Assembly: GCF_030996345.1 (NCBI RefSeq)
Contig: NZ_CP118747.1
Coordinates: 124,001-188,000 of the forward strand
From: Acidithiobacillus sp. AMEEHan
Lineage (GTDB): Bacteria > Pseudomonadota > Gammaproteobacteria > Acidithiobacillales > Acidithiobacillaceae
Length of the DNA: 64,000 bases
Reading direction: 5' to 3'
The first letter of the stretch is position 1. Every line of letters begins with the position of its first letter. Position numbers and translations under genes: made by a program. Shown here piece after piece: positions 1,179 to 32,285 of the stretch. A model generated the notes under the pieces. It saw only the letters and a program-made list of their open reading frames with translations. It made no database searches and was not told the DNA's origin.

Positions 1179-1259
1179 CGATCTGGCTATCGATGCTGAG
1201 GCAGCGACAGCGGATCGGCTCATGACGCCCTCGCGGGCCGCCGCCACACGTTTCACATT

Positions 1260-7026: not shown

Positions 7027-7953
7027 ATGATGTCGATGGCAGATCGTGATGGATTCATTTGGTTCGATGGTCAGCTGGTGCCCTGGCGCGAGGCGACGGT
7101 GCACGGCCTGACCCACAGTCTGCACTACGGTCTGGGCTGCTTCGAAGGCGAACGCGCCTACGCTACGGAGCGCGGTGCGGCCATCTTCCGACTGCCCGAG
7201 CACACCAAGCGCCTTTTCAACAGCGCCAAAATCCTGCAGATGGACGCACCCTTCACCCCGGAAGAGATCAACGCCGCAACCAAGGAAGTGATTCGCGCCA
7301 ATCGTCTCGAATCGGCCTACATTCGCCCCCTCTTCTTCTACGGCGCCGAAGGCATGGGCCTGTCGGCGCGCGGGCTCAAGGTGCATGCCCTCATTGCCGC
7401 CTGGCCCTGGGGCAGCTACTTGGGGCAGGAAGCCCTGGAGCGCGGCATTCGCGTCAAGATCAGCTCCTTCAGTCGGCATCATGTCAACATTCACCTGTGC
7501 AAGGCCAAGGCGAGTGGCAACTACATGAACTCCATGCTGGCGCACCGCGAAGCCCATCATGCCGGCTACGACGAGGCCCTGCTCCTCGACCGCGAAGGCT
7601 ATGTCGCCGAGGGTTCTGGCGAGAACATCTTCATGGTCCGCGACGGCATCCTCTACACCCCGACCCTGACCAGCGCCCTCGAAGGCATCACCCGCGATAC
7701 CATCCTGCGCTTTGCCCGCGATGCCGGTATTCCCATTGTCGAGAAGCAGCTCACCCGCGACGAATTCTACATTGCCGACGAGGCCTTCTTTACCGGAACG
7801 GCGGCCGAGGTGACCCCGATCCGCGAAATCGACGACCGCAAAATCGGCAATGGCCGCCGCGGCCCCATCACCGAGGCCCTGCAGCAGCGCTATTTCGACA
7901 CCGTTGCGGGCCGGCGCGATGACCATCCGGAGTGGTTGCACTATGTCGACTGA
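7027..7953 (+). CDS. ilvE: branched-chain amino acid aminotransferase
   Basis: A 308-residue fold-type IV PLP transaminase that carries out the last step of valine, leucine and isoleucine synthesis using glutamate. Hallmarks are FDGQLVPW at the N-terminus, HYGLGCFEG, the PLP-lysine region KAKASGNYMNSM, EGSGENIF, and FFTGTAAEVTPI near the end. Length is normal. The first ATG (7027) abuts the glnE stop; ATG codons at 7030 and 7036 are alternatives, and GAGGAG at about 7018 fits either of those better. The next gene overlaps its last 11 bases. PabC at 55870 is a paralogue of the same fold but lacks the IlvE signatures. Confidence 0.95.
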   Translation: MMSMADRDGFIWFDGQLVPWREATVHGLTHSLHYGLGCFEGERAYATERGAAIFRLPEHTKRLFNSAKILQMDAPFTPEEINAATKEVIRANRLESAYIRPLFFYGAEGMGLSARGLKVHALIAAWPWGSYLGQEALERGIRVKISSFSRHHVNIHLCKAKASGNYMNSMLAHREAHHAGYDEALLLDREGYVAEGSGENIFMVRDGILYTPTLTSALEGITRDTILRFARDAGIPIVEKQLTRDEFYIADEAFFTGTAAEVTPIREIDDRKIGNGRRGPITEALQQRYFDTVAGRRDDHPEWLHYVD

Positions 7954-8164
7954 GGTTGCCAACGAAATCCACTGCTGTGCAAAGGGGTTCGTCGAGATCG
8001 ACCCCAAGGAGCTCCCCCTCGCCTGCCCACGCCCGGCAGGCGGGTCCTGGAATGGACACCCGCGGGTATTCCTGAAAATAGAGGAGACCGGCGAGGCGCG
8101 TTGCCCCTACTGCGGCACACTGTATCTGCTCAAAGGTGGCCCGCTCGCCAAGAGCGGGCACTAG
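7943..8164 (+). CDS. zinc-finger (CHCC type) domain protein
   Basis: A 73-residue protein overlapping the end of ilvE by 11 bases. Metal-ligand candidates are in EIHCCAKGF, in HPRVFLKI and in ARCPYCGTLY, the arrangement of the zf-CHCC family related to the NDUFS6 subunit of mitochondrial complex I. In bacteria it is a common small cytosolic companion of ilvE; its biochemical role is not known. Translation is probably coupled to ilvE. Confidence 0.8.
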   Translation: MSTEVANEIHCCAKGFVEIDPKELPLACPRPAGGSWNGHPRVFLKIEETGEARCPYCGTLYLLKGGPLAKSGH

Positions 8165-8174
8165 CAGCCTCGAA

Positions 8175-10031
8175 TCACTGTCGGGAAGACCTGTCCAGCC
8201 AGCGCAAAAAGGCATCTGGGCCCAGATATCCTTCCTGTACAGCAGCCACCTGCCCACTGCGGTCGATGTGAATGAAGGCAGGAGGTCCCGCCAGTTGATA
8301 GCGTTTCAGCAACGCCTGGCTATTGGCATCGCTAGCCGTCACGTCCACCCGAATGAGCGTATACCCTGCCAAGGCCTTTTTCACCGCGGGATCACGAAAG
8401 GCAATCTGGTCCATACGCGCGCATTCCACGCACCAACTGGCCCAATAATCCACCAACACCGGCTTCCCTCGGGCGGTCTGCAAGGCGGCTTGCAAGGCCG
8501 CGGGACTTTTGACCACCTGAAACGACAATTCGACAGCGTTGTTACTGGACGCCGGGCTAGAAGTATTGACAGCCAAGGGATGCAGAGGGTCGGACTGCCC
8601 CTGCAAGGCTCCGACCCCCATCACCAGTCCATAGGCCAGTAGGGTAACGCCCAAGGCCTTGCGAAACAGATTCCATCCCCCCGTAGCCGCAGGCTCGAGG
8701 GCGCGCAGGTAGACCCCAGAAAATATTGCCAGCAACGCCCAGAGCAGTAAGGTAACGCTGCCTGGCAGGATCCGGCTCAAGAACCAGATCGCTACGCCCA
8801 GCATCAAGACCCCAAAAATCGCCTTGATGCCATCCATCCAGGCACCGGCCTTGGGCAAAAAATGTCCGGCAGAGGTGCCGATGACCAGCAGTGGCACGCC
8901 CATTCCCAGACCCAGCGCGAACAGCGCCAAAGCACCGAGCAGCACATTTCCGGTTTGCGACACGAAAAGCAGACCGCCCGCGAGCGGTGCAGCCACGCAC
9001 GGGCCGACAATCAGCGCCGACAAAATGCCCATGATGAAGCTGCTGAAGAGATGCCCACCCTTGCCAACGCGGGATAAGCGGCTCTGGATGGCAGAGGGCA
9101 TCTGCAAATCATAAAAACCGAACATCGACAATGCCAGCAGCAGGAAAATCAGAGCAAAGGCGCCGATTACCCACGGGCTTTGGAAAAAGGCCTGTAGATA
9201 GGCGCCCGTCAAGGCTGCCGCAATACCAGCAATGGTGTAGGTCAGGGCCATACCCAAAACATAAGCCAGCGACAAGGCGAAAGCGCGGGTACGCCCCGGC
9301 CGCTCCTTTTGGCCCACGATGATGCCGGACAGGATCGGGATCATCGGAAATACGCAAGGAGTAAAGGCCAGACCCAGCCCCGACACAAAAAACAGCACCA
9401 GGGTCCAGCCAAAGCTTTCTCGCAAGGATCTGGCGAGGCTCTGGGCATTGTTCTGCGGAGGACTTGCTGGTGAACTCAGCAGGGATGAGCTGGTCGCTGC
9501 ACTACTGCTGGAGGAAGCCAACGGTGCGCTCTCTGCGAGAACTTCTGGGGCGAGAGAAACGCTGATGGTCTTTTTCTGCTGTGGATAGCAGACACCGGCG
9601 TTGGCGCAACCCTGGAATTCGCTAGTTACCTGGATTTCCTTTGGCGCCGGCCCCTGAATGCGGTAAGGCAGGAGGACCCGATTGTCGCCTTCTAGCACCT
9701 GCACCTTGCCAAAGGCCGGGTCATCGAGCAGCTTGCCCGGCGGCAGTTGCAATTTCCCCATCTGGACATTGCTTGGCGCCAGTTGCACCCGGACCATGGA
9801 ACGATAGAGATGATAACCAGGCGCCACCCTCCATTGGAGGGCCAGACGCCCTGCGCCAGCGCTCTCGGCGGAAAAGCGGAACGCCTGATCCGGCGAAAGA
9901 AACTGCCCCGCCAAGGCTGTGCTGCCCCAAAGCGCGCAGCAGAGCACCAGCAGGGCCAACACACTGGCTCCCAGACGAGATCGAAGCTCCCACCAGGATC
10001 TCTGCCATCCGCCTGAATTCCCTACTCTCAT
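8175..10031 (-). CDS. dsbD: thiol:disulfide interchange protein DsbD
   Basis: An inner-membrane protein that moves electrons from cytosolic thioredoxin to periplasmic thiol proteins. All three modules are present in 618 residues: signal peptide then the periplasmic alpha domain with C142/C148 (GCANAGVCYP); a central eight-helix membrane domain with C226 (TPCVFPMIP) and C345 (VGPCVAAPL); and a C-terminal thioredoxin-like domain with C534/C537 (WCVEC). GGGGAGCGG-like Shine-Dalgarno bases precede ATG 10031. It follows cutA with a 63-bp gap, an order common in proteobacteria where cutA-dsbD are linked. Confidence 0.95.
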   Translation of the reverse strand: MRVGNSGGWQRSWWELRSRLGASVLALLVLCCALWGSTALAGQFLSPDQAFRFSAESAGAGRLALQWRVAPGYHLYRSMVRVQLAPSNVQMGKLQLPPGKLLDDPAFGKVQVLEGDNRVLLPYRIQGPAPKEIQVTSEFQGCANAGVCYPQQKKTISVSLAPEVLAESAPLASSSSSAATSSSLLSSPASPPQNNAQSLARSLRESFGWTLVLFFVSGLGLAFTPCVFPMIPILSGIIVGQKERPGRTRAFALSLAYVLGMALTYTIAGIAAALTGAYLQAFFQSPWVIGAFALIFLLLALSMFGFYDLQMPSAIQSRLSRVGKGGHLFSSFIMGILSALIVGPCVAAPLAGGLLFVSQTGNVLLGALALFALGLGMGVPLLVIGTSAGHFLPKAGAWMDGIKAIFGVLMLGVAIWFLSRILPGSVTLLLWALLAIFSGVYLRALEPAATGGWNLFRKALGVTLLAYGLVMGVGALQGQSDPLHPLAVNTSSPASSNNAVELSFQVVKSPAALQAALQTARGKPVLVDYWASWCVECARMDQIAFRDPAVKKALAGYTLIRVDVTASDANSQALLKRYQLAGPPAFIHIDRSGQVAAVQEGYLGPDAFLRWLDRSSRQ

Positions 10032-16506: not shown

Positions 16507-18308
<1,802 letters not shown>

Positions 18309-18990: not shown

Positions 18991-19644
18991 TCAGGCTTCA
19001 CCTCGGCGCAACAGAAAGGTCAATTCGTCGAAGCGTACAAGCTCCTCCTTACCCTCCTGGCTGCGAAGGTCTCTGGTCTCCAGTGTTTCTACAGACCATG
19101 CGGGTTCGTACAAGTTTCTGACTTCACTTTCCTCCACGGCAAAGGGCGGACCAGCTCGGGTGCCTTGCGGATAGTCCAGCGTAATCAGCAGCATGGGCGG
19201 ACGATTGGGCAACAGATGGTGCAGCATTCGGGCGTATTCAGAACGCACTTCCGGCGGCAGGGCAATGAGCACTGCCCGATCGTAAACCGCCACGGTGTCA
19301 GTGAGATCCGCTCGCGAGAGGGCAAAAAAATCTCCGCAGAAAATTTCCAAAGCCCCACAATGGTATCGTTGAAAGGCGCCTTGGCGTTCAGATTCGGGTT
19401 CCAGGCCGTGCTCGGCAAAAAATGCCTCGACGGCAATTGGGCTGAGTTCGACCCCCCGTACCTTGTATCTCTGCTTGGCAAGCCACAGTAGGTCCAGGCT
19501 CTTGCCACAAAGCGGCACGAAAACCCAACCATTGCTACTTGCTCCCAGCTGACTCCAATGGCGTACGAGCTGTGGATGGAATTCCGAGCGATGAAAACCA
19601 ATCCGATTTTCCTGCCAACGTTGCAACCAAGATTCTGCGCTCAT
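18991..19644 (-). CDS. tpm: thiopurine S-methyltransferase family protein
   Basis: A 217-residue SAM-dependent methyltransferase of the TPMT family. The start WLQRWQENRIGFH and motif FVPLCGKSLDLLWLA are family signatures; YDRAVLIALPPEVRSEY is another. Bacterial members methylate thiols and have been linked to selenite and tellurite tolerance. The start codon is 4 bases after the stop of the EAL protein gene, so it is the last gene of that long minus-strand operon, though its link to the signalling genes is unclear. Confidence 0.93.
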   Translation of the reverse strand: MSAESWLQRWQENRIGFHRSEFHPQLVRHWSQLGASSNGWVFVPLCGKSLDLLWLAKQRYKVRGVELSPIAVEAFFAEHGLEPESERQGAFQRYHCGALEIFCGDFFALSRADLTDTVAVYDRAVLIALPPEVRSEYARMLHHLLPNRPPMLLITLDYPQGTRAGPPFAVEESEVRNLYEPAWSVETLETRDLRSQEGKEELVRFDELTFLLRRGEA

Positions 19645-19648
19645 TACC

Positions 19649-21715
19649 CTATTCCATTTTCCGCTGATTGGCCCTCAGCCAAGTCTCCAACTCACTGCGG
19701 GGCATGGGCTTGGCAAATAAATAACCCTGTAAACGGTCCACCCCTGCTCCGCGCAGGGCCTCGGCCTGATCCAAGTTTTCCACGCCTTCAGCAACCACTT
19801 TCAGGTTCAGGGCACGGGCAATCGCGATGATGGCTTCGATCATACGCCAGATTTCTTCTTGAGAATCGAAATCGCGTACAAAACTTTGATCAATCTTGAG
19901 GGTATCGAACGACAAGCGATGGAGAGTACTCAGGGACGCGTATCCGGTACCAAAATCATCCAGCGCCAGATGAAAACCGGCCTTCCCCAAGCGCTGCAGG
20001 CAATCACCGGCGGTTTGTAGGTTGGTCACCGCTGTGGACTCGGTCACTTCCACGCAGAGATTGTGGGGACCGAGTCCATGCTGGCGCAGATGTCCGATGA
20101 GCTTTGCCGGCAATTGATCATCGAGAAGTCCCGGTGGGAAGTTGATGGCGACATAGGCATCCGCTGGCACTACATCACCTTGGATCCACTCGCGAATCAT
20201 CGGCAAGGAAGCATCGAGCATCTGCTCGGTCAACTTCCCGATCAATCCCGCCTCTTCCAGCAAAGGGATGAACTCGGCGGGAGAAACACGTTCGCCATCC
20301 TCGCGCTGCCAGCGGGCGAGAGCCTCGAAACCCACGAGCTGCCCATGGCCATGGACGATGGGCTGGAGCCAGGGTTGAAACGCACGATTTTTTACGGCAA
20401 GCGCCAATTCCGTACGCAGTTCTCGACGGCGTTTGCTGCGTTGCCGTAAGGCGTCATCGAAGCGATACAGGCCCAGTCCGAGTGCATCTGCTTCCTGCGC
20501 CGCCGCTTGGGCTGCCGCAAGGAGCACGTCTGCGGAAGGCACAAGTTCGCTCGGAGTCATCGTCGCGACGCCCGCCACCGCGGTACACGGTGGAAAGTAC
20601 GGGGACCCGGCATTGACGATCGCTATGGCCCGGCGCGCCAAGTTCTCGCCAGAGACCGCCCCACCCTGCTCGGGCTGGGGTAAAAGCAGCAGGTGTTCCA
20701 ACTGCTCTCCACTGCCGACCAGGCAACTCGGCAATTCCTGCGCGAGCGCTCTGCCCAGCGCAGCAACCGCGGCGCGGCGCCCTTCGTTTTTGTCCAAAAA
20801 ATTTTCAAGGTTGGTGAGCTGCAGCAAGATGAGAGTCTGCTCGCTCTGTCCCACTGCCCCTGCCAGCACCGCCCGGCGCGCCAGCTCGTCCGTGAGATAC
20901 AGGAGATTCGGCAAGCCGGTAAGCCGGTTGGTGTAACGCAGGTGACTGATGTGGGTATGCGTGCCAGCGCAATACGAACACGATCCATCGTCAGACCGCA
21001 GAGCGGCGCCGCGGGTGAGCACCCAGCGGTACCGGTCATCGTCGCCAAGCATTCGGTACTCGCAGTGGAAGTCGGTCTGTCCGGGCGTATGCAGAAACCG
21101 CACCAATTCCGCCTCTACCCGTGGGCGATCGTCCGGGTGAATACGTTGCAGCCACTCCGCGCTGGGATCCGTACGCGCGATAGATGCACCGCCGAGCAGT
21201 TCGCTCCAGCGCGCCGAATGCTCCATAAGATCGTCCGGCACGAACCACTCCCAGATGCCATCATTGGCTCCGGCCAAAATCAGCTCTTGGCGGACCCGTG
21301 CTTGCTGCAATTTCTGGTGGGAATGGCTGAGGCTCAAACAGGACCGAAGGCGGGCACGTAAGGTAGTAAAGTCGATGGGCTTACTGACATAGTCGTTGGC
21401 GCCCAGGGCGAACGCTTCGGCGAGATGGTCCTCTTCATCAAACGCTGTCACCATGAGGACCGGCAGGACATTGGCCGTATGCGTGCTGCGGATCCGCGCC
21501 AGGACCTCGAGCCCCGTCAGCCCCGGCAGACCGATGTCCAGCAGGATAGCTGCCGCTTGTTGTTTCTCCAGCCAAGTCAGGGCGGCTATACCGTCTGCCA
21601 CCCCCTGCGCTTCCCAGCCCTCACGGGAAAGCCTGCGCAGCAAAAGGGCACGGCTGGCGGAGTCATCCTCGACGACCAGAATGGGTGCCGGCAGGGAAAT
21701 CGATTCAAAAGTCAC
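19649..21715 (-). CDS. receiver-PAS-GGDEF(degenerate)-EAL protein, c-di-GMP phosphodiesterase
   Basis: A 688-residue cytosolic regulator. Residues about 10-130 form a receiver (ILVVEDD, LLDIGLPG, SKPID). About 145-255 form a PAS/PAC domain (GIWEWF). About 270-425 is GGDEF-like but lacks the GGDEF motif (SGEQL in its place), so it should not make c-di-GMP. About 435-685 is an EAL domain with FEALARW, LDDFGTGYASL and DQSFVRDF intact, so it probably hydrolyses c-di-GMP. It is co-translated with the upstream solo receiver (4-nt overlap). The receiver suggests control by the kinase of the same operon. Confidence 0.92.
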   Translation of the reverse strand: MTFESISLPAPILVVEDDSASRALLLRRLSREGWEAQGVADGIAALTWLEKQQAAAILLDIGLPGLTGLEVLARIRSTHTANVLPVLMVTAFDEEDHLAEAFALGANDYVSKPIDFTTLRARLRSCLSLSHSHQKLQQARVRQELILAGANDGIWEWFVPDDLMEHSARWSELLGGASIARTDPSAEWLQRIHPDDRPRVEAELVRFLHTPGQTDFHCEYRMLGDDDRYRWVLTRGAALRSDDGSCSYCAGTHTHISHLRYTNRLTGLPNLLYLTDELARRAVLAGAVGQSEQTLILLQLTNLENFLDKNEGRRAAVAALGRALAQELPSCLVGSGEQLEHLLLLPQPEQGGAVSGENLARRAIAIVNAGSPYFPPCTAVAGVATMTPSELVPSADVLLAAAQAAAQEADALGLGLYRFDDALRQRSKRRRELRTELALAVKNRAFQPWLQPIVHGHGQLVGFEALARWQREDGERVSPAEFIPLLEEAGLIGKLTEQMLDASLPMIREWIQGDVVPADAYVAINFPPGLLDDQLPAKLIGHLRQHGLGPHNLCVEVTESTAVTNLQTAGDCLQRLGKAGFHLALDDFGTGYASLSTLHRLSFDTLKIDQSFVRDFDSQEEIWRMIEAIIAIARALNLKVVAEGVENLDQAEALRGAGVDRLQGYLFAKPMPRSELETWLRANQRKME

Positions 21716-22068
21716 GACGTTACCAATTCCTTGATGGACTCCAGTAGCTGCTCAAAATCTATGGGTTTGCTCAGGTAGGCCTGAGCCCCCAAAGTCAGCG
21801 CCCTCTCCCGTTCACCGCCCAGGGAATGGGCGCTCAGTACGATGATCGGCACCTTTTGATCAGCCTCGCGAATGCGTTCGATGGCCTCCCAGCCATTCAT
21901 CTCGGGCATGGCAAGATCCATCAGGATGATCTGCGGGCCATGCGCCTTGACTGCCTGCACGGCGATGTGGCCATTTTCGGCCTCGATGACCGTAAATCCC
22001 CGGCGCTGCAAGCGACGGCTGAGCATATCGCGATTTCGTGCGTCATCCTCAGCGAGAAGCAGATTCAT
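21712..22068 (-). CDS. single-domain response regulator
   Basis: A 118-residue receiver without output domain: LLLAEDD for the acidic pocket, ILMDLAMPEMNG with the phospho-Asp, and YLSKPIDF with the Lys. A longer upstream reading frame exists, but the ATG at 22068 has GGAGAGG before it and overlaps the histidine kinase stop by 4 bases. It probably relays phosphate from that kinase, CheY- or Spo0F-like. It overlaps the next gene by 4 bases too. Confidence 0.92.
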   Translation of the reverse strand: MNLLLAEDDARNRDMLSRRLQRRGFTVIEAENGHIAVQAVKAHGPQIILMDLAMPEMNGWEAIERIREADQKVPIIVLSAHSLGGERERALTLGAQAYLSKPIDFEQLLESIKELVTS

Positions 22069-23405
22069 CGTCCCTCTCCTCCGGCTGTCGACGAGAGCGG
22101 CAGAAAAAGATGGAAGGAGGAACCGATCCCCAGATGGCTCTCCACCTCGATACGTCCCCCGAGCAATTCGATCAATTGACGGGTAAGAGCCAGACCAAGC
22201 CCGGTGCCGCCAAAGCGACGGTCGATGTCGTCCTCGGCCTGCACAAAGGCATCGAAGATACGATTCATTGCCTCGGGGCTGATACCAATACCCGTGTCCG
22301 AAACTGTCCATCGGACGTCGTCGTAAACCCGTTGCACGCGCAAAGTGACGACGCCATCGCGAGTAAACTTTGCTGCATTGCCGATCAGATTGAGGAGACA
22401 TTGGCGCAGTTTGCCGCTATCGGTGTCCAATATGGGGAGTTGCGCATCCAGCTCCAGCGCAAAGCGATTGCCATTGCCTTCCACCAGCGGCCGCGCAACA
22501 TTGCCCACCGCGCGCGCCAACTCGGCGGGGTGGACGGGTTCTCTATGTACCCGTGTCTGGCCAGCCTCGATCCGGCTCATATCCAGGACGTCATTGATCA
22601 GCCCCAGCAGATGCCGGCCGGCATCGCGGATTGCCTGGAGATCGCTGCGACTGTTTTCGGCTGCTACGCCATCATCGAGCTCCTCGAGGATCAGCTCACT
22701 GTAGCCGATAATGGCATTGAGGGGGGTGCGTAGTTCGTGGCTCATGCCGGCAAGAAAACGACTCTTGGCCAACGATGCCGCCTCGGCGGCCTGACGGCGC
22801 TCTTCCAGAGTTCTTTCTTGCGCCCGTTGCTCGCGAATGTCGCGTAACAAACCGACAAAACGGCGTTGCTCGTGGACACAAATTTCAGCGACGGCAAGAT
22901 GCACGGGTATCCGAGTCCCATCACGCCGACGAACCTCAACCTCTCGTCCGACGCCAATGACGCGTCTCTCACCGCTTTGCAGGTAGCGAAGCAGATAGTT
23001 ATCGTGCTCATGAGCGTAAGGCTCCGGCATGAAAACCTTGATGTTGCAACCCAGGAGGCTATCGTCTGTGGCCAGCAATTGCCTGGCCGCAGGATTGGCT
23101 TCCAGAATGGTACCGTGGGCATCGATCACGATCAGTCCATCGAGCAGAGTGTCCCAAGTTGCCTTGAGCAAAGCAGAGCGCTCAGCCACGCGCTGATCGA
23201 GATCACGGACATTGGCCTGTTCGCGATCGAGAAGCCGGGCTACGGAATCCAGCAGAAAATTGATCAGCAGCACCAGTTGTTCGATATCAGGATCGGCAAC
23301 TTGCGCGCGGACAGTGAAATCCACCCGACCGTCCACGGCCAGACAAAGCTGATTACTGATTTCGTGTAGCGCTTGGCGCAACGGATCTGGGTCACCAATC
23401 TTCAA
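22065..23405 (-). CDS. PAS-domain sensor histidine kinase, cytosolic
   Basis: A 446-residue kinase with no membrane segment. An N-terminal region of about 75 residues is followed by a PAS domain (LDGLIVIDAHGTILEANPAA), a dimerisation domain with phospho-acceptor His223 (AGMSHELRTPLNAIIGYSEL), and a catalytic domain with N box NLIGNAAKF, DTGIGIS and GGTGLGLAL. It is encoded between the H-NOX-like protein and a receiver, with 4-nt overlaps on both sides. In other bacteria H-NOX proteins inhibit the partner kinase on NO binding, so this is its likely partner (inference). Confidence 0.93.
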   Translation of the reverse strand: MKIGDPDPLRQALHEISNQLCLAVDGRVDFTVRAQVADPDIEQLVLLINFLLDSVARLLDREQANVRDLDQRVAERSALLKATWDTLLDGLIVIDAHGTILEANPAARQLLATDDSLLGCNIKVFMPEPYAHEHDNYLLRYLQSGERRVIGVGREVEVRRRDGTRIPVHLAVAEICVHEQRRFVGLLRDIREQRAQERTLEERRQAAEAASLAKSRFLAGMSHELRTPLNAIIGYSELILEELDDGVAAENSRSDLQAIRDAGRHLLGLINDVLDMSRIEAGQTRVHREPVHPAELARAVGNVARPLVEGNGNRFALELDAQLPILDTDSGKLRQCLLNLIGNAAKFTRDGVVTLRVQRVYDDVRWTVSDTGIGISPEAMNRIFDAFVQAEDDIDRRFGGTGLGLALTRQLIELLGGRIEVESHLGIGSSFHLFLPLSSTAGGEGR

Positions 23406-23974
23406 TGGGAGTCATCCTTGGCGCTGAACTGCAGCTGAAACGCACACTCGGTATCACCGCGCTTCCGACATTGGAGAACGTCGATCTGCACCTGCTGTCC
23501 ATAGTGTTTGCCAAACTCCTCGGCCAAGGCGATGTACAGGCCGCAATAGCGGTTGGGAGAACGATAAAAAACGAGCAATTTTCCTTCCGGACCTTCCTCC
23601 ACGGCAAACTTGTCGTTGACCGCATCGCGTTTTGCCGTATCGCGCAGGCCCGAGGCTAGCATGTTGTGGATCGCTGGCTGACGTGCCAGGAACTCGCGAG
23701 CATCGGCCGATACTTGGAAAAAAGTTGGGAAGCGGGTGAAGGTTTCCGCGAGAAAAAACCGCGCGTAGATACGAAATGCCTCGTCCTGATCCACGCCCAG
23801 CACGAGGCAGGCATTTTTCAGGAGCTCGTTGACTTCCTCGTTATCGTAATCGGTATCGAGGCGATATTGGAAATCCGGCGCGAGTCCGGTGCGTCGTTTG
23901 ACCTCCGCCAGCGCCTCGTCACCACCCACCTGCTGGACCATATCCAACAGCACTTTCTGAATCAGGCCAATCAT
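23402..23974 (-). CDS. H-NOX-like (haem NO/O2-binding, HNOB) sensor protein
   Basis: A 190-residue protein with the layout of bacterial H-NOX domains: start MIGLIQKVLLDMVQ, helical first half, and His103 at the expected position of the proximal haem ligand (QPAIHNML). The propionate-binding signature is altered: H-NOX has Y-x-S-x-R, here Y137-R-S139-P-N141-R142, with the Arg one place later. Its last third ends KRGDTECAFQLQF, a tail also seen in V4R-type domains. Sits between the GGDEF protein and the kinase with 4-nt overlaps. Haem binding is inferred, not proven. Confidence 0.72.
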   Translation of the reverse strand: MIGLIQKVLLDMVQQVGGDEALAEVKRRTGLAPDFQYRLDTDYDNEEVNELLKNACLVLGVDQDEAFRIYARFFLAETFTRFPTFFQVSADAREFLARQPAIHNMLASGLRDTAKRDAVNDKFAVEEGPEGKLLVFYRSPNRYCGLYIALAEEFGKHYGQQVQIDVLQCRKRGDTECAFQLQFSAKDDSH

Positions 23975-25842
23975 GCGCTGCCACCTGTGCCGTGCAGAAT
24001 GATGCGATTGCGTCCATCGCGCTTGGCCTGCAGCAAGGCTTGGTCGGCCGCCCGCAGCAGATCATCCGGGCTGGACATCTCTGGTGTACGTTCGGCAACA
24101 CCGCCGCTGAGGGTGATGGATGGGAAGTCGCCGGCCAATTTCTCTACCGCCCTGCGGAGCCGCTCGCCAAGCTGCGCGGCCTCCTCTGCGCTGCTATTGC
24201 TGCACACGACCACGAACTCCTCACCCCCCCAGCGTGCCACTCGGTCACTGCTGCGGACGTGATCTTTCAAGATCTTTGCCAGGGCTCGTAACGCACGGTC
24301 GCCGGTGTCGTGACCATGTTCATCATTGACCTGCTTGAAGTGATCGACATCGAGCATGACGACAGCCAGACGGGAAGCATAGCGCCGGGAGCTTTCCCAG
24401 GCTTCCTCGAGATACTGGTCGATACTACGACGGTTGCTCAGGCCGGTCAGGTCGTCCTGCGCGGCGGCCTGTCGCAGCGCCTCATTCAACAGAAGGAGTT
24501 CGCGCTGACTTTCACGAACTTGGTATTGTGCCTCTTCGAGCGATTGGGTGAGTTCGACGGCATCGCGCGCATTTTTGAGTTTGGCCAGTAGCAAGTTCCG
24601 GGAAACCGGCTTTTCCAGAAAGTCGTTGGCACCAGCATCCAAGGCCTGTACCGTGTGTTCACCATTCATGACGGCAGAAAGTACCAGCAGATATACCCGT
24701 CCGCCAAACTGTTTGCGCAGACACTGGCAGAGGCCCGCGCCATCCATGCCCGGTAGTACCCAGTCGAGAATCAGAATCCGGGGCAGGAATTGCTGAATGA
24801 GCTCCATCGCCGATTCCGCATCGCTGGCTTCCAGCACTTCATATCCGGCGGGCTCCAGCATGCGCCGAAGCAGCGTGCGGCTGGCAACGTCGTCGTCGAC
24901 GACCAACACCCGGACCGCGCGGCCGGCACCGCTGGCGCGCCCCACCAAGGGCATTGCTTCGGGATGACTAAGCTGCTGCAGTCGGCTGCGCACATCGGCT
25001 GGTGGATCGATCTCGAAAAGATCGGCGAGATCTTGCCACTCACCTTCGATCTCCGTGCGGATCCGGTCCATCAGGTCATTGTGCGGTCCGAATTTGGCGA
25101 GCAGCCGCTCTGGCGGCGGGGCATTCTCCGCACAACTGCCGTCAGCGTAGCCGCCAAACCAACGTGCGATATTCAGCATCGCCCGCAGCTCCTGACTCCG
25201 AAGCGTATGACTGCCGGCATCGGCGTCGTCGGAACTCACGGCCTCTGCCATGAAGCCGGGAAGCCCCCAACGCGTCAGCAGTGCGGCGCTGAGCTGTCGG
25301 TGATCAAAGCCAAACTCGGCCTGTTCCTTTTCCAGCCGCTCTACCAGATCGCTGCTGCTTTCCAGAATACGGCCATAGGGCTCGTGGACGGCACAGGCCA
25401 GAATCAGGGCACCGATGTCGGCCAGCAACCCGACAGTGAAGAGCTCGGTGGGCGACCAGGCACCAATTGCCTTGGCGAGCGCCTGCAAGGCCGTTGCGCG
25501 TATGAGGGCGGCACTCCAGTAACGGGGCAAATCGAAGAAACGGGAGAGGGCCGGTCGCTGCTCCGTCAGAGAAAGACCAATCGCCAGCCGAGCAAGCACC
25601 GCCAAGCCAATGCGCATGACCGCATCTTCGATGGCGACCACTGGACGCAAACCCCGGTAGAGCGCCGAGTTCGCGAGCTGCACAGCCTTGGCGGCAAGGA
25701 TGGGATCTCGCCGCACCCTTTCGGCAATGTCGCGTACGGATACCTCCGGCCGATCAAGCATCTCGAGCAGCTCCAAGGCCAAGCGGGGCGGCGAGGGGCA
25801 GTCGCAATCATCCAGATAGCGCAAAAAATCATCCATGGTCAT
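23971..25842 (-). CDS. HDOD-receiver-GGDEF protein, probable diguanylate cyclase
   Basis: A 623-residue protein. Residues about 10-230 are an HDOD domain (RDPILAAKAVQLANSA). About 312-430 form a receiver (VLVVDDD, ILDWVLPGMDG, LEKPVS). A coiled-coil linker leads to a GGDEF domain (DDLTGLSNRRS, DVDHFKQVND, RWGGEEFVVV) with intact GGEEF, so it should make c-di-GMP. It may oppose the EAL protein of the same operon. HDOD domains act as adaptors in signalling, without known enzyme activity. ATG 25842 or 25836; GAGGGTG lies upstream. Confidence 0.92.
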   Translation of the reverse strand: MTMDDFLRYLDDCDCPSPPRLALELLEMLDRPEVSVRDIAERVRRDPILAAKAVQLANSALYRGLRPVVAIEDAVMRIGLAVLARLAIGLSLTEQRPALSRFFDLPRYWSAALIRATALQALAKAIGAWSPTELFTVGLLADIGALILACAVHEPYGRILESSSDLVERLEKEQAEFGFDHRQLSAALLTRWGLPGFMAEAVSSDDADAGSHTLRSQELRAMLNIARWFGGYADGSCAENAPPPERLLAKFGPHNDLMDRIRTEIEGEWQDLADLFEIDPPADVRSRLQQLSHPEAMPLVGRASGAGRAVRVLVVDDDVASRTLLRRMLEPAGYEVLEASDAESAMELIQQFLPRILILDWVLPGMDGAGLCQCLRKQFGGRVYLLVLSAVMNGEHTVQALDAGANDFLEKPVSRNLLLAKLKNARDAVELTQSLEEAQYQVRESQRELLLLNEALRQAAAQDDLTGLSNRRSIDQYLEEAWESSRRYASRLAVVMLDVDHFKQVNDEHGHDTGDRALRALAKILKDHVRSSDRVARWGGEEFVVVCSNSSAEEAAQLGERLRRAVEKLAGDFPSITLSGGVAERTPEMSSPDDLLRAADQALLQAKRDGRNRIILHGTGGSA

Positions 25843-25935
25843 GGCTGGGCCGCACCCTCACTGTAGAGAAACCGCCGAATCATGCGTATCTTGGAAACGC
25901 ATTTCCATCCTGACAACTTGCAACTCCCCATTCGT

Positions 25936-26385
25936 TCACCAGCTTTCGGAGCAGGTCACGCCGTTTTCGTGATACTCCGAACGCAAGTGCAGGGTCACGA
26001 TTTTCCGACCCGTGACGGATTCCACGACCCCGTCGATGAGGCCAAAGCCAAAATGGCAGAGGGCGTGGTTGCCGGCAGGAATTCCCTGCTCGCGCAAGGT
26101 GAGCCCGATCTTGCAACCCACAAGCTCTGCTTGGCCATCCAGCAGACAGACTCCTTCCATGAATTCCTTGTTACGGAAGAAGTCGGACACCAGGGCCCGT
26201 GCCTCCTCGACGCTTTTACCGGCATGGCCTTCTCCAATTTTTTTGCCCAGTTGTCTGCCGGCAAAACGAAAGACGCTGACGGCGCCCTTATCGCCGATCA
26301 GCACGCCCACCTGATTGGCAATGCTGTAGAGGAGCTCGACCACGTCCTTGGTATCCATCGCACATTGCTTGACCTGCTCTGTCAT
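25936..26385 (-). CDS. V4R-like small-molecule-binding protein
   Basis: A 149-residue soluble protein. The second half (CHFGFGLIDGVVESVTGRKI then HENGVTC) has the conserved Cys-Gly-Gly-Cys layout of V4R domains, which bind small ligands or metal centres in sensors. ATG 26385 is chosen because GGGAGA lies just upstream; the frame opens 12 codons earlier. It lies 45 bases after the larger V4R-like gene and 93 before the HDOD-GGDEF gene. Family assignment is by pattern only; ligand unknown. Confidence 0.5.
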   Translation of the reverse strand: MTEQVKQCAMDTKDVVELLYSIANQVGVLIGDKGAVSVFRFAGRQLGKKIGEGHAGKSVEEARALVSDFFRNKEFMEGVCLLDGQAELVGCKIGLTLREQGIPAGNHALCHFGFGLIDGVVESVTGRKIVTLHLRSEYHENGVTCSESW

Positions 26386-26430
26386 CAAATGTCTCCCGCA
26401 ATCCGTTCCAGGACTCAACAACCCCCAAAA

Positions 26431-27777
26431 TCACAAACAATTCCGTTCTACAACCACTTCGGAATATGCGTCTCCTTGGGCAACACAACGGGTCTGTCGG
26501 CCCCAGAATCCCCCTTTGCTGCGGTTCACCTGATAATAGAAGTCCAGGGTGAGATCCGGTTTGGTGGTAATATCCGCCGTATAGAGCAGATTCATCAGCG
26601 AGGCGCCGATTCCGGTCATCAAATAATCGATGGGGTGGTCGGAGTAACTGCCGTAGATGCGCAGATAGCCGAGTGATTCATAGGGATACCAGGCGCGCAA
26701 CACCAGCCGTTCATTGGGGATGATCTCGGCAATACGCCAGATTCCCCAACCCAGGGCATTGATGCAGGCGATGATCCCTGCCAGCCAATCCTCTTTGCTA
26801 TGCAGCTGGGGGACAACGAGCTGGTACCAGGGATCGGAGCGCATGATCCCCCCCATCGTGTTGAAGCCGCAGATATGTCCTGCTTCGATCAGCAGGGTTT
26901 GCGCCAAGGCCTTGCCCTGTAGGTGGCAAAACTTGTCTTTGTAGTAAAACAGGGCGGGATACTCATACCAGAGCATCTCCCCCAGGTATTTGTGGGTGGA
27001 CAAGGCCTGCGCCAATGCTTCCTCGAAGCGAAAGGAGACCAGGTTGTAGTAGTCGGCATAGTGCCGGGTCAGGTAGACACCGAAGGCCGGGATCAGGCCG
27101 TTTTCGTCACCGGACAGAGGGAGTGTTCCCACGGCGCCGATGATGGCGTCCTCGTCTACATGGAGACTCTGCGTGCGCGGCGATATCTGCGCGGCCCCTT
27201 CTGGTAGAATCGGCTGCGAGATGGCCGGGGTCCGGAGCGGAAAATCTCCTTCGAGACGGGGGATGATCCGGAAAACCGTGGCATCGCCGCCTTTGGAAAT
27301 GGGTTCAGGGCTGGTCTGAATGGCTCCCTGCAGGGGACGCTCCTGGATGGCGGAAAGGCTGCCTACGGCAAAACCCAGGTCAAAATATTCGCCAGGACTG
27401 CGACGCACTCCATAGTTCAGGCGCAGGGCACTTCCATAGTGGGAGTGGGTCTCGCGGACATCCATCCATTCCCCTGTGCTCTGATCGACATGCGTGAAGT
27501 CCAGATTACCGAATCCACAGTAGCGGTAGAGCGTTTCTGCACAGGCAGTTCGCTCTTCCAGCCTCCATTCAGGATGCCTGGCAAAAATCCCTCGCAACTG
27601 GCGAAAGACGACTTCGGTAGCGGCGTCTTGCAGGATTGGCTCATGGGCAATGTAATGACAGTCTTCCACCACGAGCTGCAGAAAGCGGTTGTAGTGGTTG
27701 CAATGGAAGACCATCGGCTCTCCATCGAGAACCACCACCCCGCTGTGATCGTCGCGAACTGGTTGGCACGCGTACAT
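26431..27777 (-). CDS. large conserved protein with C-terminal V4R-like region
   Basis: A 448-residue soluble protein that I do not recognise as a named family. The N-terminal half is rich in His, Cys and aromatic residues (FHCNHYNRFLQLVVEDCHY, YRYCGFGNLDF). The C-terminal third (YLMTGIGASLMNLLYTADI then TRCVAQGDAYSEVVV) resembles a V4R domain like that of the next gene. The start is uncertain: ATG 27777 is used here, while an upstream frame to 27900 would overlap the Roadblock gene. Probably a sensor or metal/haem-binding member of this operon. Confidence 0.55.
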   Translation of the reverse strand: MYACQPVRDDHSGVVVLDGEPMVFHCNHYNRFLQLVVEDCHYIAHEPILQDAATEVVFRQLRGIFARHPEWRLEERTACAETLYRYCGFGNLDFTHVDQSTGEWMDVRETHSHYGSALRLNYGVRRSPGEYFDLGFAVGSLSAIQERPLQGAIQTSPEPISKGGDATVFRIIPRLEGDFPLRTPAISQPILPEGAAQISPRTQSLHVDEDAIIGAVGTLPLSGDENGLIPAFGVYLTRHYADYYNLVSFRFEEALAQALSTHKYLGEMLWYEYPALFYYKDKFCHLQGKALAQTLLIEAGHICGFNTMGGIMRSDPWYQLVVPQLHSKEDWLAGIIACINALGWGIWRIAEIIPNERLVLRAWYPYESLGYLRIYGSYSDHPIDYLMTGIGASLMNLLYTADITTKPDLTLDFYYQVNRSKGGFWGRQTRCVAQGDAYSEVVVERNCL

Positions 27778-27850
27778 AACAAGGGGACCCCTGGCATATC
27801 TGTGGACCAACGACTTAGATAGGCGAGATTTCGGGATCCTGCCGTTCGGC

Positions 27851-28195
27851 TCAGCCCTCCAGCGTCCTGATCTTTTGACCCAAACCTTGGACATCAGCAT
27901 CGGCGGGCAGCACGATCATCAGCAGGGTGTCAGCGCTCTGAGGAAGAAACAGGGCGGCATGATCCTGGCAGCGGATGATGATCTCCTGCGTTGCACATTC
28001 GGCAAGGCCGGAGCCAACATGTTCCGCCAGCCGCATTACCGCCGCTCCCGCCACGCCGATCAGCCGCTCGTCGGCCACTTTTTCCCCCGCGTAGTGCAGG
28101 ATGGCTCCATCACTGGAAATCACGGCAATACTGCGAACGCTCGCTACAGCAGCGTGGATCTTTGTCGACAGCTTTTGAAATCTCTCTGGATTCAC
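27851..28195 (-). CDS. Roadblock/LC7-domain protein
   Basis: A 114-residue Roadblock fold: IAVISSDGAILHYAGEKVAD and EIIIRCQDHAALFLPQ strands around helices. Bacterial Roadblock proteins usually modulate small GTPases (MglB) or act as scaffolds, but no GTPase is encoded nearby. It overlaps the ODP-like gene stop by 4 bases (ATGA). The position in a sensory operon suggests a scaffold or ligand-sensing role, which is inference. Confidence 0.78.
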   Translation of the reverse strand: MNPERFQKLSTKIHAAVASVRSIAVISSDGAILHYAGEKVADERLIGVAGAAVMRLAEHVGSGLAECATQEIIIRCQDHAALFLPQSADTLLMIVLPADADVQGLGQKIRTLEG

Positions 28196-28989
28196 AGCGC
28201 TTCTCCTGAGCGGATAGGAAATTGGAATGCTTCTTCATTCAGCAGGTCCGGACCACATTCCAGCTCCGCAAACCAATCGAGGAAGGCACGGACGGTCTCC
28301 TTGCCTTTGAAGGAAGCGCCATGTTGCGGCACGATCCAGTCGACATCCATACTGCGCAGCATCTGTGCCCAGAGTCGACAGACCTTGTTGCCACCCATGT
28401 AGCGGCGATGGAAGGCATCCATGCCCGATCTCGCGCGGTGCGCATGAAAGGCGTCGGCACCCTCGATGGGAGTCATGGCTTCCTTCCCGCTCACCAGATT
28501 GGCACCAATATCTCCGGAAAACAGGATCCTGCTCCGTGGATCGTAGACCTGAAAATTGCCCACCGAGTGCAGATAGTGGGCAGGAATGAGATGCAGGTCT
28601 TGTCCCGCGAGGGAAACCATGGCGCCTTGCGCGGGAATGCCAATGACCCGTCCGGCGGTCATTCCTTTGGAGCAGAAGTGTGGCAGAAAGCGTGTCCATT
28701 CCTGGGCAATGAGAATCTTGGCATCGGTGATCAGGAGCCAGCCATTGGCCGAGGCAACGATGTCCGGATCTTCGTGGGAGGCAAAGACATAGTCCAGATG
28801 TGCCGGCAAAAAATAGTCGGCCATGCCGGCAAGGAGGTTTTTGTAGGTCAGATTGCCTCCTGGGTCGAGCAGCATCCCCTCACCCTGGTGAACAATCAGA
28901 AACTGGTTGGCCTGAATGCCCTCCCCCTCCACCAGGTCCGTAAACGCGACACATTTATGTTCACCGTCATCGTACAGCAATACGCTCAT
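28192..28989 (-). CDS. di-iron oxygen-binding (ODP-type) metallo-beta-lactamase-fold protein
   Basis: A 265-residue protein with the fold of flavodiiron proteins but no flavodoxin domain. Likely iron ligands are H72, D74 and D76 (SHEDPD), H138 or H141 (PAHYLHSVGN), D160 (FSGDIGAN) and a late His (VPQHGASF). Known ODPs reversibly bind O2 at such a site and work as oxygen sensors in chemotaxis. It is the first gene of the sensory operon. A metallo-hydrolase or NO/O2 reductase part is the alternative. Confidence 0.7.
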   Translation of the reverse strand: MSVLLYDDGEHKCVAFTDLVEGEGIQANQFLIVHQGEGMLLDPGGNLTYKNLLAGMADYFLPAHLDYVFASHEDPDIVASANGWLLITDAKILIAQEWTRFLPHFCSKGMTAGRVIGIPAQGAMVSLAGQDLHLIPAHYLHSVGNFQVYDPRSRILFSGDIGANLVSGKEAMTPIEGADAFHAHRARSGMDAFHRRYMGGNKVCRLWAQMLRSMDVDWIVPQHGASFKGKETVRAFLDWFAELECGPDLLNEEAFQFPIRSGEAL

Positions 28990-29180: not shown

Positions 29181-29762
29181 TTATGTCTCCGGCACGAAAA
29201 TCCGCAGGATGCGAGGGTTCTTCCGTGCGTGCAGCAAGGCCATTGCGATGTGCCCACCCCAATATCCCCAGAGCAAATTGGCAACCAGAGAATGGATGCT
29301 CTTGGGTAGGGCATAATAGGTAGCGGCGGGTTTCACTCCGTGGGCAGAAAAAATCAAATAGAACATCAAAATGCCCGTAAGCCCCATCGCCGTAACCACG
29401 AGAATACCCAATCCATGCACAAAGCCGGGCAACCCGCCGCGCATCCCACCCTCGGGCAGGCTTCCTTGCAGGGCACCGCGCATATCCATCCAAATTCGTT
29501 CACGATGTATCCCCAGATAGGGAAACAGATGCAAGCGAAGCTCTCGCGACAGACAAATCTCTCGCCAGAACAGGAGGATGACCAGAAAGGTTGTGGTACC
29601 CAGAAGCATATGCGCCCAGTACAGCACATGCTGATACAGGGCAACACCCACATGCTTCCAGATCGCATGCATTTTCAATTGACTGAACAATTGGAATGTC
29701 ACTAGGATCGCCAGGGCCAAATGTAACCATTTTAATGATAAGGGCCAAGATTGCTCTTCCAT
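29181..29762 (-). CDS. cytochrome b561-type membrane protein
   Basis: A 193-residue membrane protein with four predicted helices and haem-ligand candidates in each pair (KWLHLALAI, YWAHMLLGTT, FVHGLGILVV, GGHIAMALLHA). Such b-type cytochromes pass electrons between quinol and periplasmic or membrane partners. It lies 62 bases after the TonB receptor stop on the same strand, so the two may be co-transcribed; a reductase role for imported metal is one possibility. Partner unknown. The 190 bases between 28990 and 29180 hold no gene. Confidence 0.82.
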   Translation of the reverse strand: MEEQSWPLSLKWLHLALAILVTFQLFSQLKMHAIWKHVGVALYQHVLYWAHMLLGTTTFLVILLFWREICLSRELRLHLFPYLGIHRERIWMDMRGALQGSLPEGGMRGGLPGFVHGLGILVVTAMGLTGILMFYLIFSAHGVKPAATYYALPKSIHSLVANLLWGYWGGHIAMALLHARKNPRILRIFVPET

Positions 29763-29824: not shown

Positions 29825-32197
29825 TCAAAAGTGCGCGGAGATACTGCCGAACACCGTGAGTGGCGCACCTGGCAAGGCCAAAACCTGGCCGGCCGAATTC
29901 CCACCCAACAAGCCACCAGCCGTAATGTACTGGAATTCGTTGTAGTGATTATTGGTGAGATTGAGAATATTCAGGCTCAAATCGACATGCCGTAGGAACG
30001 GTACCATGCCAACCGTGGGGATTTTCTCGTCGATACCGAGATTGAGGGTACCATAGGCAGGCATTTTCTCCGTACTGGGCATACCAGCATTATTAAACAT
30101 CGATTGCGCACCCACATACTGATACCACAGACGCGGCTGCAGCACGGTTCCCGCCAAAGGCAGGCGATAAATCACACCAATGTTGAAGGTCTTGTTGGGA
30201 ACATTCGATACCGGCAGGCCATTATAGGAGACCCCACCGGTGACGTAGTGACCGAAAACCGCCTTCTCGAAGTTCGCATTCATGAACAGATCGAGGTTAT
30301 ACAAAATCTCGTCATCCAACGCCAGATTCACGCCCTGATAGATGGAATCGCCATTGGCATCGCCAATATAGTTCCCGTTGCTGTCATAGAGAGGAATATA
30401 CTGATTGGTATAGTGGAGATGATAGAAACTTGCGGTAAAGAGGAAATGATGCAGAAATGCCGCATGGTCAAAGTGGATCTTGACACCGGCATTATAATCA
30501 GCGCTGCGCTCCAGGTTATAGATGGGCGCTGTTGACTGATAAAGCCCACCGCCGCCACCCACTTGTGGCTCCTTGTAGGCTTCCGCGTAACTGGCAAAGA
30601 GCGCCAACCACGGAATGGGACGCCAATTGAAATCCAGCGACGGCTCCACCTGGGTAAAACTCCTACTTGCTGCTGGCAGAACACCCTGATTATTCTGCGG
30701 ATACAGGGCATACGCCTGTGCAAAGTCTGTCTGCCCAGAGGGGGTATAGCGGGTCTGATAATTGATGACACGGACTCCTGGGGTGATGTGCAGATTTTCC
30801 ATCGGGTTGATCCGATCCTGCACGAAGGCAGCGAGATCGGTCTGCTGGAAATAATCACTACGATAGTGGGCGTTGGGTACAAGTCGCGATCCAAAGTATG
30901 GCGCATTGGTGTTGTAGAACGCGTTTCGAGTGTTGTAGTCACTGTTCAGGAAAAATCCGCCAAAACTTACTTCGTTATACGGAAGCTTAGCGGTGAGGAA
31001 GAGCTTGTCTCCATACACCGCGTCATGGGGATTGTTGTACTCATAGAGGTTACTCGGGTTGCTTAGGCCATAGTTATTGTAATGGAAGTGTAAACGATGG
31101 CCGTAGCGGTACCAGATCATGTTGTGCAGCGACCAGATCTTGTCCAGGTCGACATTCAGCTTACTGTACAAGAGCCAAGTACTGTTGCTGTCCTGCTTAT
31201 ACCAAACGTCGTTGGGTAAGGAGGAGTAGAAGCCACTCGTTGCCTGACTGTACAACGGCGAGTTCGCAGTGCCATTCAAGGTCACACCGGCAATGGGATT
31301 GACTGGAATGGGTACCGGACGATAGCCAGAACCTTTTGCCAAATACGCACCCACAGAAAAATCACCATTACTGAAGGTCTTTCTCGTCTTCAAGAACCAC
31401 GCATAACTGTAACTGGGGTTATTGAAACCGTCAGGGCTTTGCCGATAGCTATTCGATGAACCAGCGCCTCCGGCCAGAATTGTCGACCATCCATCGACGT
31501 TGCCCGTGCGAATGTTGAAAACGATATTTTTCGAATCATAGCTGCCATAGGTGAGCTTGATATCGCCACCGGGCTTGGCAGTTGGCTGCAGCGGCACGAA
31601 ATTGATTTGACCGCCGATATTGTTATACCAGCGATTCTCTGGGTTACCTGGACCATAGGTAATGCCAATGCCCTGCAGGATCCCGGTCTGTGGAACCTGA
31701 GGTGATTGCCACAAGCCGGTAGACGGGTCAACCATCGGCACACCATCGAAGGTTACGGAAAGACTACCATCATCGATCTGACCGCCAGAAAAACCGCCCC
31801 AGCCCTGCTTGATGCCGTTGATACTGATGGAAGTCTTGGTCGCGCCACTGGAGCCATACCCAGATACACCAACACCGGGAGCGTAACTGAGGGCCTGGGC
31901 ACTCCCACCCATGGGACCCGCAGCGGCCATCTGCGCCTTGTCGAGCACCTTGATGGATTGTCCAGAAGTGAAATTGTGTTTCTGGGTGAGACTCCTGGCT
32001 TCCTTGCTGCCAAGGTCGCTAGTAGCGGCAACGGCGGCACTGACTTCGCCAATGGAAATCGTGGATTGCGTAGGAGCAGTAACGGAATCTTCAGCGTGGG
32101 CAACGCCGATGAACAGGAAACCAGCGGCAGCCATCGCCGCGCGCAGGACAGAGGGCGCCCCACGGTGGGGACGCGAAGATACAAAATTTGTTGACAT
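29825..32197 (-). CDS. TonB-dependent outer-membrane receptor
   Basis: A 790-residue receptor with signal peptide (AAMAAAGFLFIGVAHAE), a plug domain (about 75-200: SAQALSYAPGVGVSGYGSSG, GGQINFVPL) and a 22-strand type barrel ending in Phe (FGSISAHF). It imports a ligand using TonB energy. ATG 32197 has GAGAGG upstream, so it is preferred to the earlier frame start at 32260. The Pho-like array upstream suggests induction by phosphate starvation and an organophosphate ligand; a metal chelate is the alternative. The barrel sequence does not reveal the substrate. Confidence 0.9.
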   Translation of the reverse strand: MSTNFVSSRPHRGAPSVLRAAMAAAGFLFIGVAHAEDSVTAPTQSTISIGEVSAAVAATSDLGSKEARSLTQKHNFTSGQSIKVLDKAQMAAAGPMGGSAQALSYAPGVGVSGYGSSGATKTSISINGIKQGWGGFSGGQIDDGSLSVTFDGVPMVDPSTGLWQSPQVPQTGILQGIGITYGPGNPENRWYNNIGGQINFVPLQPTAKPGGDIKLTYGSYDSKNIVFNIRTGNVDGWSTILAGGAGSSNSYRQSPDGFNNPSYSYAWFLKTRKTFSNGDFSVGAYLAKGSGYRPVPIPVNPIAGVTLNGTANSPLYSQATSGFYSSLPNDVWYKQDSNSTWLLYSKLNVDLDKIWSLHNMIWYRYGHRLHFHYNNYGLSNPSNLYEYNNPHDAVYGDKLFLTAKLPYNEVSFGGFFLNSDYNTRNAFYNTNAPYFGSRLVPNAHYRSDYFQQTDLAAFVQDRINPMENLHITPGVRVINYQTRYTPSGQTDFAQAYALYPQNNQGVLPAASRSFTQVEPSLDFNWRPIPWLALFASYAEAYKEPQVGGGGGLYQSTAPIYNLERSADYNAGVKIHFDHAAFLHHFLFTASFYHLHYTNQYIPLYDSNGNYIGDANGDSIYQGVNLALDDEILYNLDLFMNANFEKAVFGHYVTGGVSYNGLPVSNVPNKTFNIGVIYRLPLAGTVLQPRLWYQYVGAQSMFNNAGMPSTEKMPAYGTLNLGIDEKIPTVGMVPFLRHVDLSLNILNLTNNHYNEFQYITAGGLLGGNSAGQVLALPGAPLTVFGSISAHF

Positions 32198-32285
32198 GCG
32201 ATTAACCTCTCGTAGCTGGGCGTTGTATTGCAACAAACCATTTGGTCGTACAACAACCAAACACGAGAGAAGCTAGCACATTATT

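Follow-up and report, generated by a model that had tools for sequence, protein, structure and literature searches.

The window examined here, a 64,000-nucleotide (nt) stretch of contig NZ_CP118747.1 of Acidithiobacillus sp. AMEEHan (genome G000; 2.63 Mb, Acidithiobacillaceae), carries at positions 19649-28989 nine minus-strand genes in an unbroken run, encoding in order an oxygen-binding diiron protein (ODP), a Roadblock protein, a V4R-fold protein, a 149-residue orphan, an HDOD-REC-GGDEF protein, an H-NOX-like protein, a PAS kinase, a lone receiver and a REC-PAS-EAL protein. The original prediction delimited this run correctly, and most of the domains it assigned were recovered by Pfam, but it also read the ODP, Roadblock and V4R proteins as inputs to one cyclic di-GMP (c-di-GMP) switch, and this part did not survive comparison with relatives. 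Genes 1-4 (module A) and genes 5-9 (module B) are, in fact, separate cassettes standing side by side. The best explanation for the region, and one we consider fairly likely, is that of two independent cassettes arranged head to tail, with module B being an H-NOX/kinase c-di-GMP circuit accompanied by a TPMT-family gene, and module A an ODP-Roadblock pair accompanied by two sensor-like proteins. The features of the region are as follows (all on the minus strand):

28192..28989, module A gene 1: ODP-family di-iron metallo-beta-lactamase protein, 265 amino acids (aa); PF19583, 3.2e-66
27851..28195, module A gene 2: Roadblock/LC7 protein, 114 aa, overlapping the ODP gene by 4 nt; Robl_LC7
26431..27777, module A gene 3 (X489): 448-aa protein of V4R/TRAPP fold, probably tandem, with a reading frame open to 27900; from a structure model
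25936..26385, module A gene 4 (V161): protein of 149 aa with no assigned family, perhaps V4R-like
25843..25935, module B leader: common to a relative without module A
23971..25842, module B gene 5: HDOD-REC-GGDEF protein, 623 aa, GGEEF with RSSD I-site; Pfam and motifs
23402..23974, module B gene 6: 190-aa H-NOX-like protein, a member of the YxSxN group; HNOB 3.5e-22
22065..23405, module B gene 7: soluble HAMP-like-PAS-HisKA-HATPase kinase, 446 aa; Pfam (PAS-HisKA-HATPase_c) and motifs
23151..23405, HAMP-like N-terminal domain of gene 7, putative H-NOX docking site; from co-occurrence
21712..22068, module B gene 8: lone receiver, 118 aa; Response_reg, start from G007 homology
19649..21715, module B gene 9: REC-PAS-(region without GGDEF match)-EAL protein, 688 aa, EAL motifs intact; Pfam and motifs
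18991..19644, methyltransferase of the TPMT family, probably closing module B in this lineage; PF05724, 4e-72

Adjacent genes overlap by 4 nt at five of the eight junctions (1/2, that is ODP/Roadblock, and 5/6, 6/7, 7/8 and 8/9), one fewer than the six originally counted, and the remaining three junctions are gaps of 73, 45 and 93 nt. These gap figures assume that genes 3 and 4 start at the ATG codons at 27777 and 26385, respectively, close to the starts of their relatives; both open reading frames (ORFs) extend open upstream of the chosen ATGs.

That the two modules can be separated is seen from a search for ODP and H-NOX in the same 30 genomes, 19 of which are Acidithiobacillaceae. A close ODP with a Roadblock neighbour occurs in 11 of the 19 family genomes and an H-NOX in four (still four after the search was widened to 29 family genomes), and the ODP-Roadblock pair is found together with H-NOX only in the genome of the window; as completeness is 61-91% for some family genomes, any single absence carries limited weight. 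G007 and G003 each have a complete module B in the same order, with no adjoining module A; in G018, where module A is likewise not adjacent, the order is kept up to a contig end that falls inside the EAL gene. In G007, module B occupies the same chromosomal place as in the window and has the same cytochrome b561 gene as its neighbour, while a toxin-antitoxin-like pair (recognized by eye) stands at the position of module A; the two genomes share 84% identity over the 92 nt that precede gene 5. The converse arrangement is found in Acidithiobacillus sp. STE_117 (G002, locus L096), which has an intact module A and, after it, a module B cut down to 26 codons from the start of gene 5 and some fragments of gene 9, and then TPMT. 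The original prediction had itself named the lack of a conserved neighbourhood in relatives as a refutation, and for the nine-gene order this is the outcome: as one unit it was not found in any relative examined.

Some observations nonetheless weigh against a complete separation. The modules are contiguous, on one strand and just 93 nt apart, and for this reason read-through from A to B is quite possible. Because a decayed module B follows module A in G002, their juxtaposition predates the loss of module B in that lineage, and the adjacency is older than one genome. A scan for the sigma-70 consensus, furthermore, detected no site in the leader of module B, but none was detected elsewhere in the region either, and the scan is therefore uninformative on promoters. 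A single integrated switch, with the module A proteins (ODP, Roadblock and V4R) acting on the kinase or the c-di-GMP enzymes of module B, would agree with this contiguity and with the former company of the modules in G002, but it appears improbable to us in view of the single family genome out of 19 with both parts, of the complete B modules without A, of the persistence of A where B was lost, and of a module B leader shared with a relative that is without A.

Judged from its genes, module B is a variant of an H-NOX/kinase/c-di-GMP circuit, and here the original prediction held up well: the order of H-NOX-like protein, soluble kinase, REC-GGDEF and REC-EAL proteins is common to the window genome and to G007, G003, G385 and G018 (the last truncated as described above), and both c-di-GMP enzymes have the intact catalytic motifs claimed for them, with GGEEF preceded five residues upstream by RSSD in gene 5, and EALAR, EVTE, DDFGTG and KIDQSF in gene 9. 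The kinase motif SHELR is likewise present in gene 7. The whole of module B, TPMT gene included, is found in G385, a one-contig genome from another family of the class, and in the H-NOX tree described below G385 groups with G000 and G007 (95/89) to the exclusion of the family members G003 and G018, a grouping that, for this one gene, suggests horizontal transfer. The TPMT gene follows module B in three genomes, beginning 4 nt downstream of the EAL gene in the window and overlapping it by 4 nt in G007 and G385 (loci L079 and L183), and may belong to the unit; no TPMT gene follows the EAL gene in G003. The closest described pathway is HnoX-HnoK-HnoB(-HnoD) of Shewanella and Vibrio (PMC8846402), which likewise combines a stand-alone H-NOX-family protein, a soluble kinase and a REC-linked phosphodiesterase. 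Module B differs from it in its YxSxN H-NOX, the HAMP-like domain of its kinase, its HDOD-REC-GGDEF protein, its lone receiver and its terminal TPMT gene; within the operon, to which this search was confined, there is no HnoD gene, and the HDOD-REC-GGDEF gene stands instead.

The H-NOX-like protein of module B belongs to a group of its own. Gene 6 matches the HNOB profile with 79.5 bits (cut-off 25.5), and its His103 aligns with the proximal His of sGC beta-1 and is kept in all four family orthologues, while the haem-propionate motif YxSxR reads YRSPN at residues 137-141, with Asn in place of Arg. Our unrooted tree of 27 H-NOX-family proteins included those of the window, three family orthologues, 17 other matches from the class search (17 of 369 genomes matched, that of the window included), four genomes out of the 25 matched in the phylum search (two of these four chosen for high scores), and two Acidiphilium plasmids out of three plasmid matches. 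It is split with full support (100/100) into eleven proteins, ten with YxSxN and one, that of G330, with no such motif, and sixteen others, every one of which has YxSxR. As the tree carries no root, we refer to the former simply as the YxSxN group.

What accompanies this group is a partner domain. In all eleven YxSxN-group loci the gene that follows the H-NOX opens with a version of the domain formed by the first 85 or so residues of the window's kinase; it is carried by PAS kinases in G000, G007, G003, G018 and G385, by a hybrid-type kinase in G070, by a GGDEF protein in G330, and by EAL proteins in G644 and G587 (assigned by similarity to gene 9) as well as in both plasmids (annotated as EAL, also matching GGDEF). 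A profile trained on the five PAS kinase rows recovered the other six loci, with E-values between 2e-16 and 2e-9, among 7,414 ORF segments drawn from 217 partly overlapping loci. Such a domain, characterized by an invariant Cys and an LxxLxNF motif, is found on 11 of the 63 distinct kinase, GGDEF or EAL ORFs in the loci collected; it was not found in the other 52, nine of which lie inside group loci and 43 outside, with 11 of these 43 sitting in YxSxR H-NOX loci. In a reverse search ten of 369 class genomes matched, four of them strongly (98 bits or more), and these are exactly the class genomes with a YxSxN-group H-NOX. As all four were themselves in the alignment, what is informative is that no other genome gave a strong score, only the best candidates per genome having been scored. 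The six weak matches (21-28 bits) were rejected as further partners, as four appeared by eye to be HAMP domains after membrane helices and two were poor, and no H-NOX was found near them within the 3-kb stretches inspected. Apart from gene 7, the window genome gave a single match, at an E-value of 0.23, and thus has no second strong copy.

The loci of the two Acidiphilium plasmids (pACMV1 and pACRY01; L212 and L213), where the YxSxN H-NOX gene lies beside an EAL gene with insertion-sequence genes nearby, resemble in plan, as do those of G644 and G587, the H-NOX and GGDEF(-EAL) pairs of Legionella (Hnox1), Dinoroseobacter and S. woodyi, in which the H-NOX gene is likewise beside a c-di-GMP enzyme; the likeness is one of gene layout.

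From this constant association we infer that the H-NOX may dock in trans on the HAMP-like domain, the point through which a membrane signal usually enters HAMP proteins. In module B, the stand-alone YxSxN H-NOX would thus dock on the N-terminal domain of the soluble PAS kinase, occupying the usual place of the membrane sensor, and would set autophosphorylation of the kinase, which in turn would feed up to three receivers, namely those of the HDOD-REC-GGDEF cyclase, of the lone REC and of the REC-PAS-EAL phosphodiesterase. The state of the H-NOX sensor would thereby set c-di-GMP. Against such a docking must be weighed that the HAMP character of the domain is recognized by pattern, with no convincing Pfam match, that the proposal draws on co-occurrence in 11 loci, and that 19 more genomes of the phylum search and one plasmid, all with weaker H-NOX matches, lie outside the docking sample. 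It would be tempting to extend the argument and see in the YxSxN proteins a distinct, probably non-haem-nitric oxide branch of H-NOX with a dedicated HAMP-like docking domain swapped among kinases, hybrid kinases and GGDEF/EAL proteins, that is, a plug-in cytosolic sensor that replaces the membrane sensor of a HAMP protein and has spread, through horizontal transfer and on plasmids, in acidophiles and elsewhere; we offer this as a tentative conjecture, rather unlikely to be right in all its parts.

As for what the H-NOX-like protein senses, two readings are compatible with the two-module arrangement. The original prediction called it a haem sensor, and although its profile match and proximal His agree with the family, the label is uncertain because the Arg of YxSxR is Asn, and haem binding by the gene 6 protein is, on its residues, doubtful. 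The module could still be an ordinary haem-nitric oxide pathway of the HnoX-HnoK-HnoB type if the Asn of YxSxN tolerates haem, and such a reading is possible, even though we lean away from it. Not only is the proximal His conserved in the alignment and the Tyr and Ser of the motif retained, but the module has much the same parts as the nitric oxide pathway of PMC8846402; moreover, in PMC8196705 YxSxR is reported to stabilise the haem propionates, but the lack of haem in sGC-alpha is ascribed to occlusion and not to the motif, so that loss of the Arg alone is no proof of haem loss. The Asn, however, is present in all ten motif-bearing members of the group, and the H-NOX-like protein of G330 (L168/L185), which has neither proximal His, nor motif, nor the three Cys discussed next, still has the partner-domain gene adjacent. 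Alternatively, the protein might chiefly sense redox state through thiols and zinc, in the manner reported for the haem-free H-NOX of V. cholerae, a reading that we regard as rather unlikely. A cysteine/zinc redox site is possible from the residues, as Cys144, Cys169 and Cys177 of gene 6 fall on the zinc ligands Cys139, Cys164 and Cys172 of S. oneidensis H-NOX (given in PMC7108781), the residue numbers differing by the offset of 5 seen in a weak phmmer match to 4u9b, and all three Cys are present in eight of the eleven group members. They are missing, however, from both Acidiphilium plasmid copies and from G330, the fourth zinc ligand (His/Gln) is not in place, and the Cys are also found in many YxSxR proteins.

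With regard to module A, gene 1 is a clear member of the ODP family (PF19583, 223 bits against a cut-off of 27.2), matches a solved oxygen-binding diiron protein at 2e-58, and has HxDxD, H, D and H residues that align with those of solved ODPs and that we take to be the metal ligands. A Roadblock gene adjoins the ODP gene in 14 of the 16 closest ODP loci, which span three families and were taken at 42% identity or more from 35 ODP matches in the 30 genomes. It should be counted against this reading of module A that gene 2 itself scores marginally, right at the threshold (PF03259, 5e-5, 23.3 bits versus a cut-off of 23.0). The examination of the 19 more distant ODP matches covered two, those of the window genome (G000:C1:50478-51209 and 1058294-1059025; L197 and L198), which, judged by eye, lie in apparent chemotaxis operons with cheY-, cheA- and cheV/cheW-like neighbours. 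The ODP of Treponema denticola, a chemotaxis oxygen sensor according to PMC7666581, belongs to the same family; the neighbour of the module A protein, however, is a Roadblock protein and not a chemoreceptor. Two further loci are worth recording: L085 of G008 (6958-9192), where a Roadblock, a stand-alone protoglobin (PF11563), an ODP and a second Roadblock are found together, the protoglobin being another oxygen sensor in a Roadblock-centred cluster, and L088 of G001 (485-3942), with a Roadblock, a PAS protein, a gene 4 homologue, an HD-domain protein, an ODP and a Roadblock on one strand.

Two V4R-like proteins had been proposed in this module, and only the first could be substantiated, by its fold. 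The AlphaFold model of gene 3 (predicted local distance difference test, pLDDT, 91.7) matches in its first half the sensor domain of PoxR (Z 17.6, root-mean-square deviation [rmsd] 2.8, 174 aligned residues) and the V4R protein MJ1460 (Z 13.1, rmsd 4.2, 144 aligned); together with a Foldseek search, this makes the modelled first half a PoxR/MopR-like V4R domain. A second, Bet3-like domain is probably present (Z 8.0, rmsd 3.6, 149 aligned), this being the weaker half of the fold assignment, as the structural matches that reach residue 446 all have Z of 8.1 or less. At the level of sequence gene 3 matched no Pfam family at an E-value of 0.1, V4R included, and its profile gave weak matches in the PDB (2osd, E 0.39; MopR, 0.47), outscored by inositol polyphosphate multikinases (E 0.14-0.19) that we took as chance. 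Gene 4 had no Pfam match, and profile searches gave nothing convincing beyond a sub-threshold match to MsvR (E 0.025); its model, built from four sequences, had a pLDDT of 39, too poor for a structure search.

Module A would most likely pass oxygen or redox state to a Roadblock/Ras-like GTPase pathway encoded elsewhere. The link to such a pathway is perhaps best treated as a lead, not a result. Relatives of gene 3 occur at 69 loci, many in sulfur oxidisers and others in archaea and other phyla. A coupling of gene 3 to Roadblock by adjacency was rejected, as two small home-made profiles placed a Roadblock within the retrieved stretch at just seven of these loci, which speaks against the proposed link. 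By genome, a Roadblock is present in 34 of 48 genomes with gene 3 (obtained from 50 of the 69 loci, one of which had no genome in the set and two of which lie in one genome) versus 48 of 274 class genomes. The Fisher p of 5e-13 serves as no more than a guide, because some genomes seem to be in both sets and genomes were not picked at random. In two Halothiobacillus metagenome-assembled genomes, genes 3 and 4 are in a locus with a Ras-like GTPase and one clear and one sub-threshold Roadblock, together with a PAS protein and a phosphonate-binding-type protein (Pfam was run on L105 only), and the window genome has a Ras-like GTPase, a sub-threshold Roadblock and a clear Roadblock in a row at G000:C1:1507783-1509371 (L195), homologous to part of the Halothiobacillus locus. 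Roadblocks near a Ras-like GTPase and a V4R/Bet3-fold protein recall MglA/MglB-type GTPase-Roadblock systems and TRAPP, even though, in contrast to the MglA/MglB type, the window operon has no GTPase. Because GTPase, roadblock and TRAPPC3/V4R proteins of Asgard archaea are treated together in PMC10933270, the bacterial neighbourhood is worth following.

Among the matches listed in our literature search, whose coverage mostly excludes subscription papers, no title or abstract described this gene combination. The GGDEF, EAL and HDOD proteins of acidithiobacilli have been counted in a study on nucleotide second messengers (PMC6416229), and a text search of its main text found no mention of H-NOX, HNOB or Roadblock. 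Upstream of module A and on the same strand lie a cytochrome b561-type protein and a TonB-dependent receptor (29181-29762 and 29825-32260), and downstream of the operon (16507-18308) two ORFs resemble by eye an IS21-type istA/istB pair.

The idea of four gas sensors on one switch dissolves once relatives are compared, and stands as a warning that adjacency is a poor guide to how operons work: what seemed a four-sensor switch is a juxtaposition, and what is new here is the H-NOX group with its partner domain. H-NOX proteins are read by default as haem-nitric oxide sensors, and a YxSxN branch with one partner domain at every examined locus offers a clean test of how these proteins choose and switch partners, and also of whether some of them sense redox state instead. 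The V4R-Roadblock-GTPase neighbourhood, in turn, provides a secondary lead to the bacterial relatives of TRAPP components.

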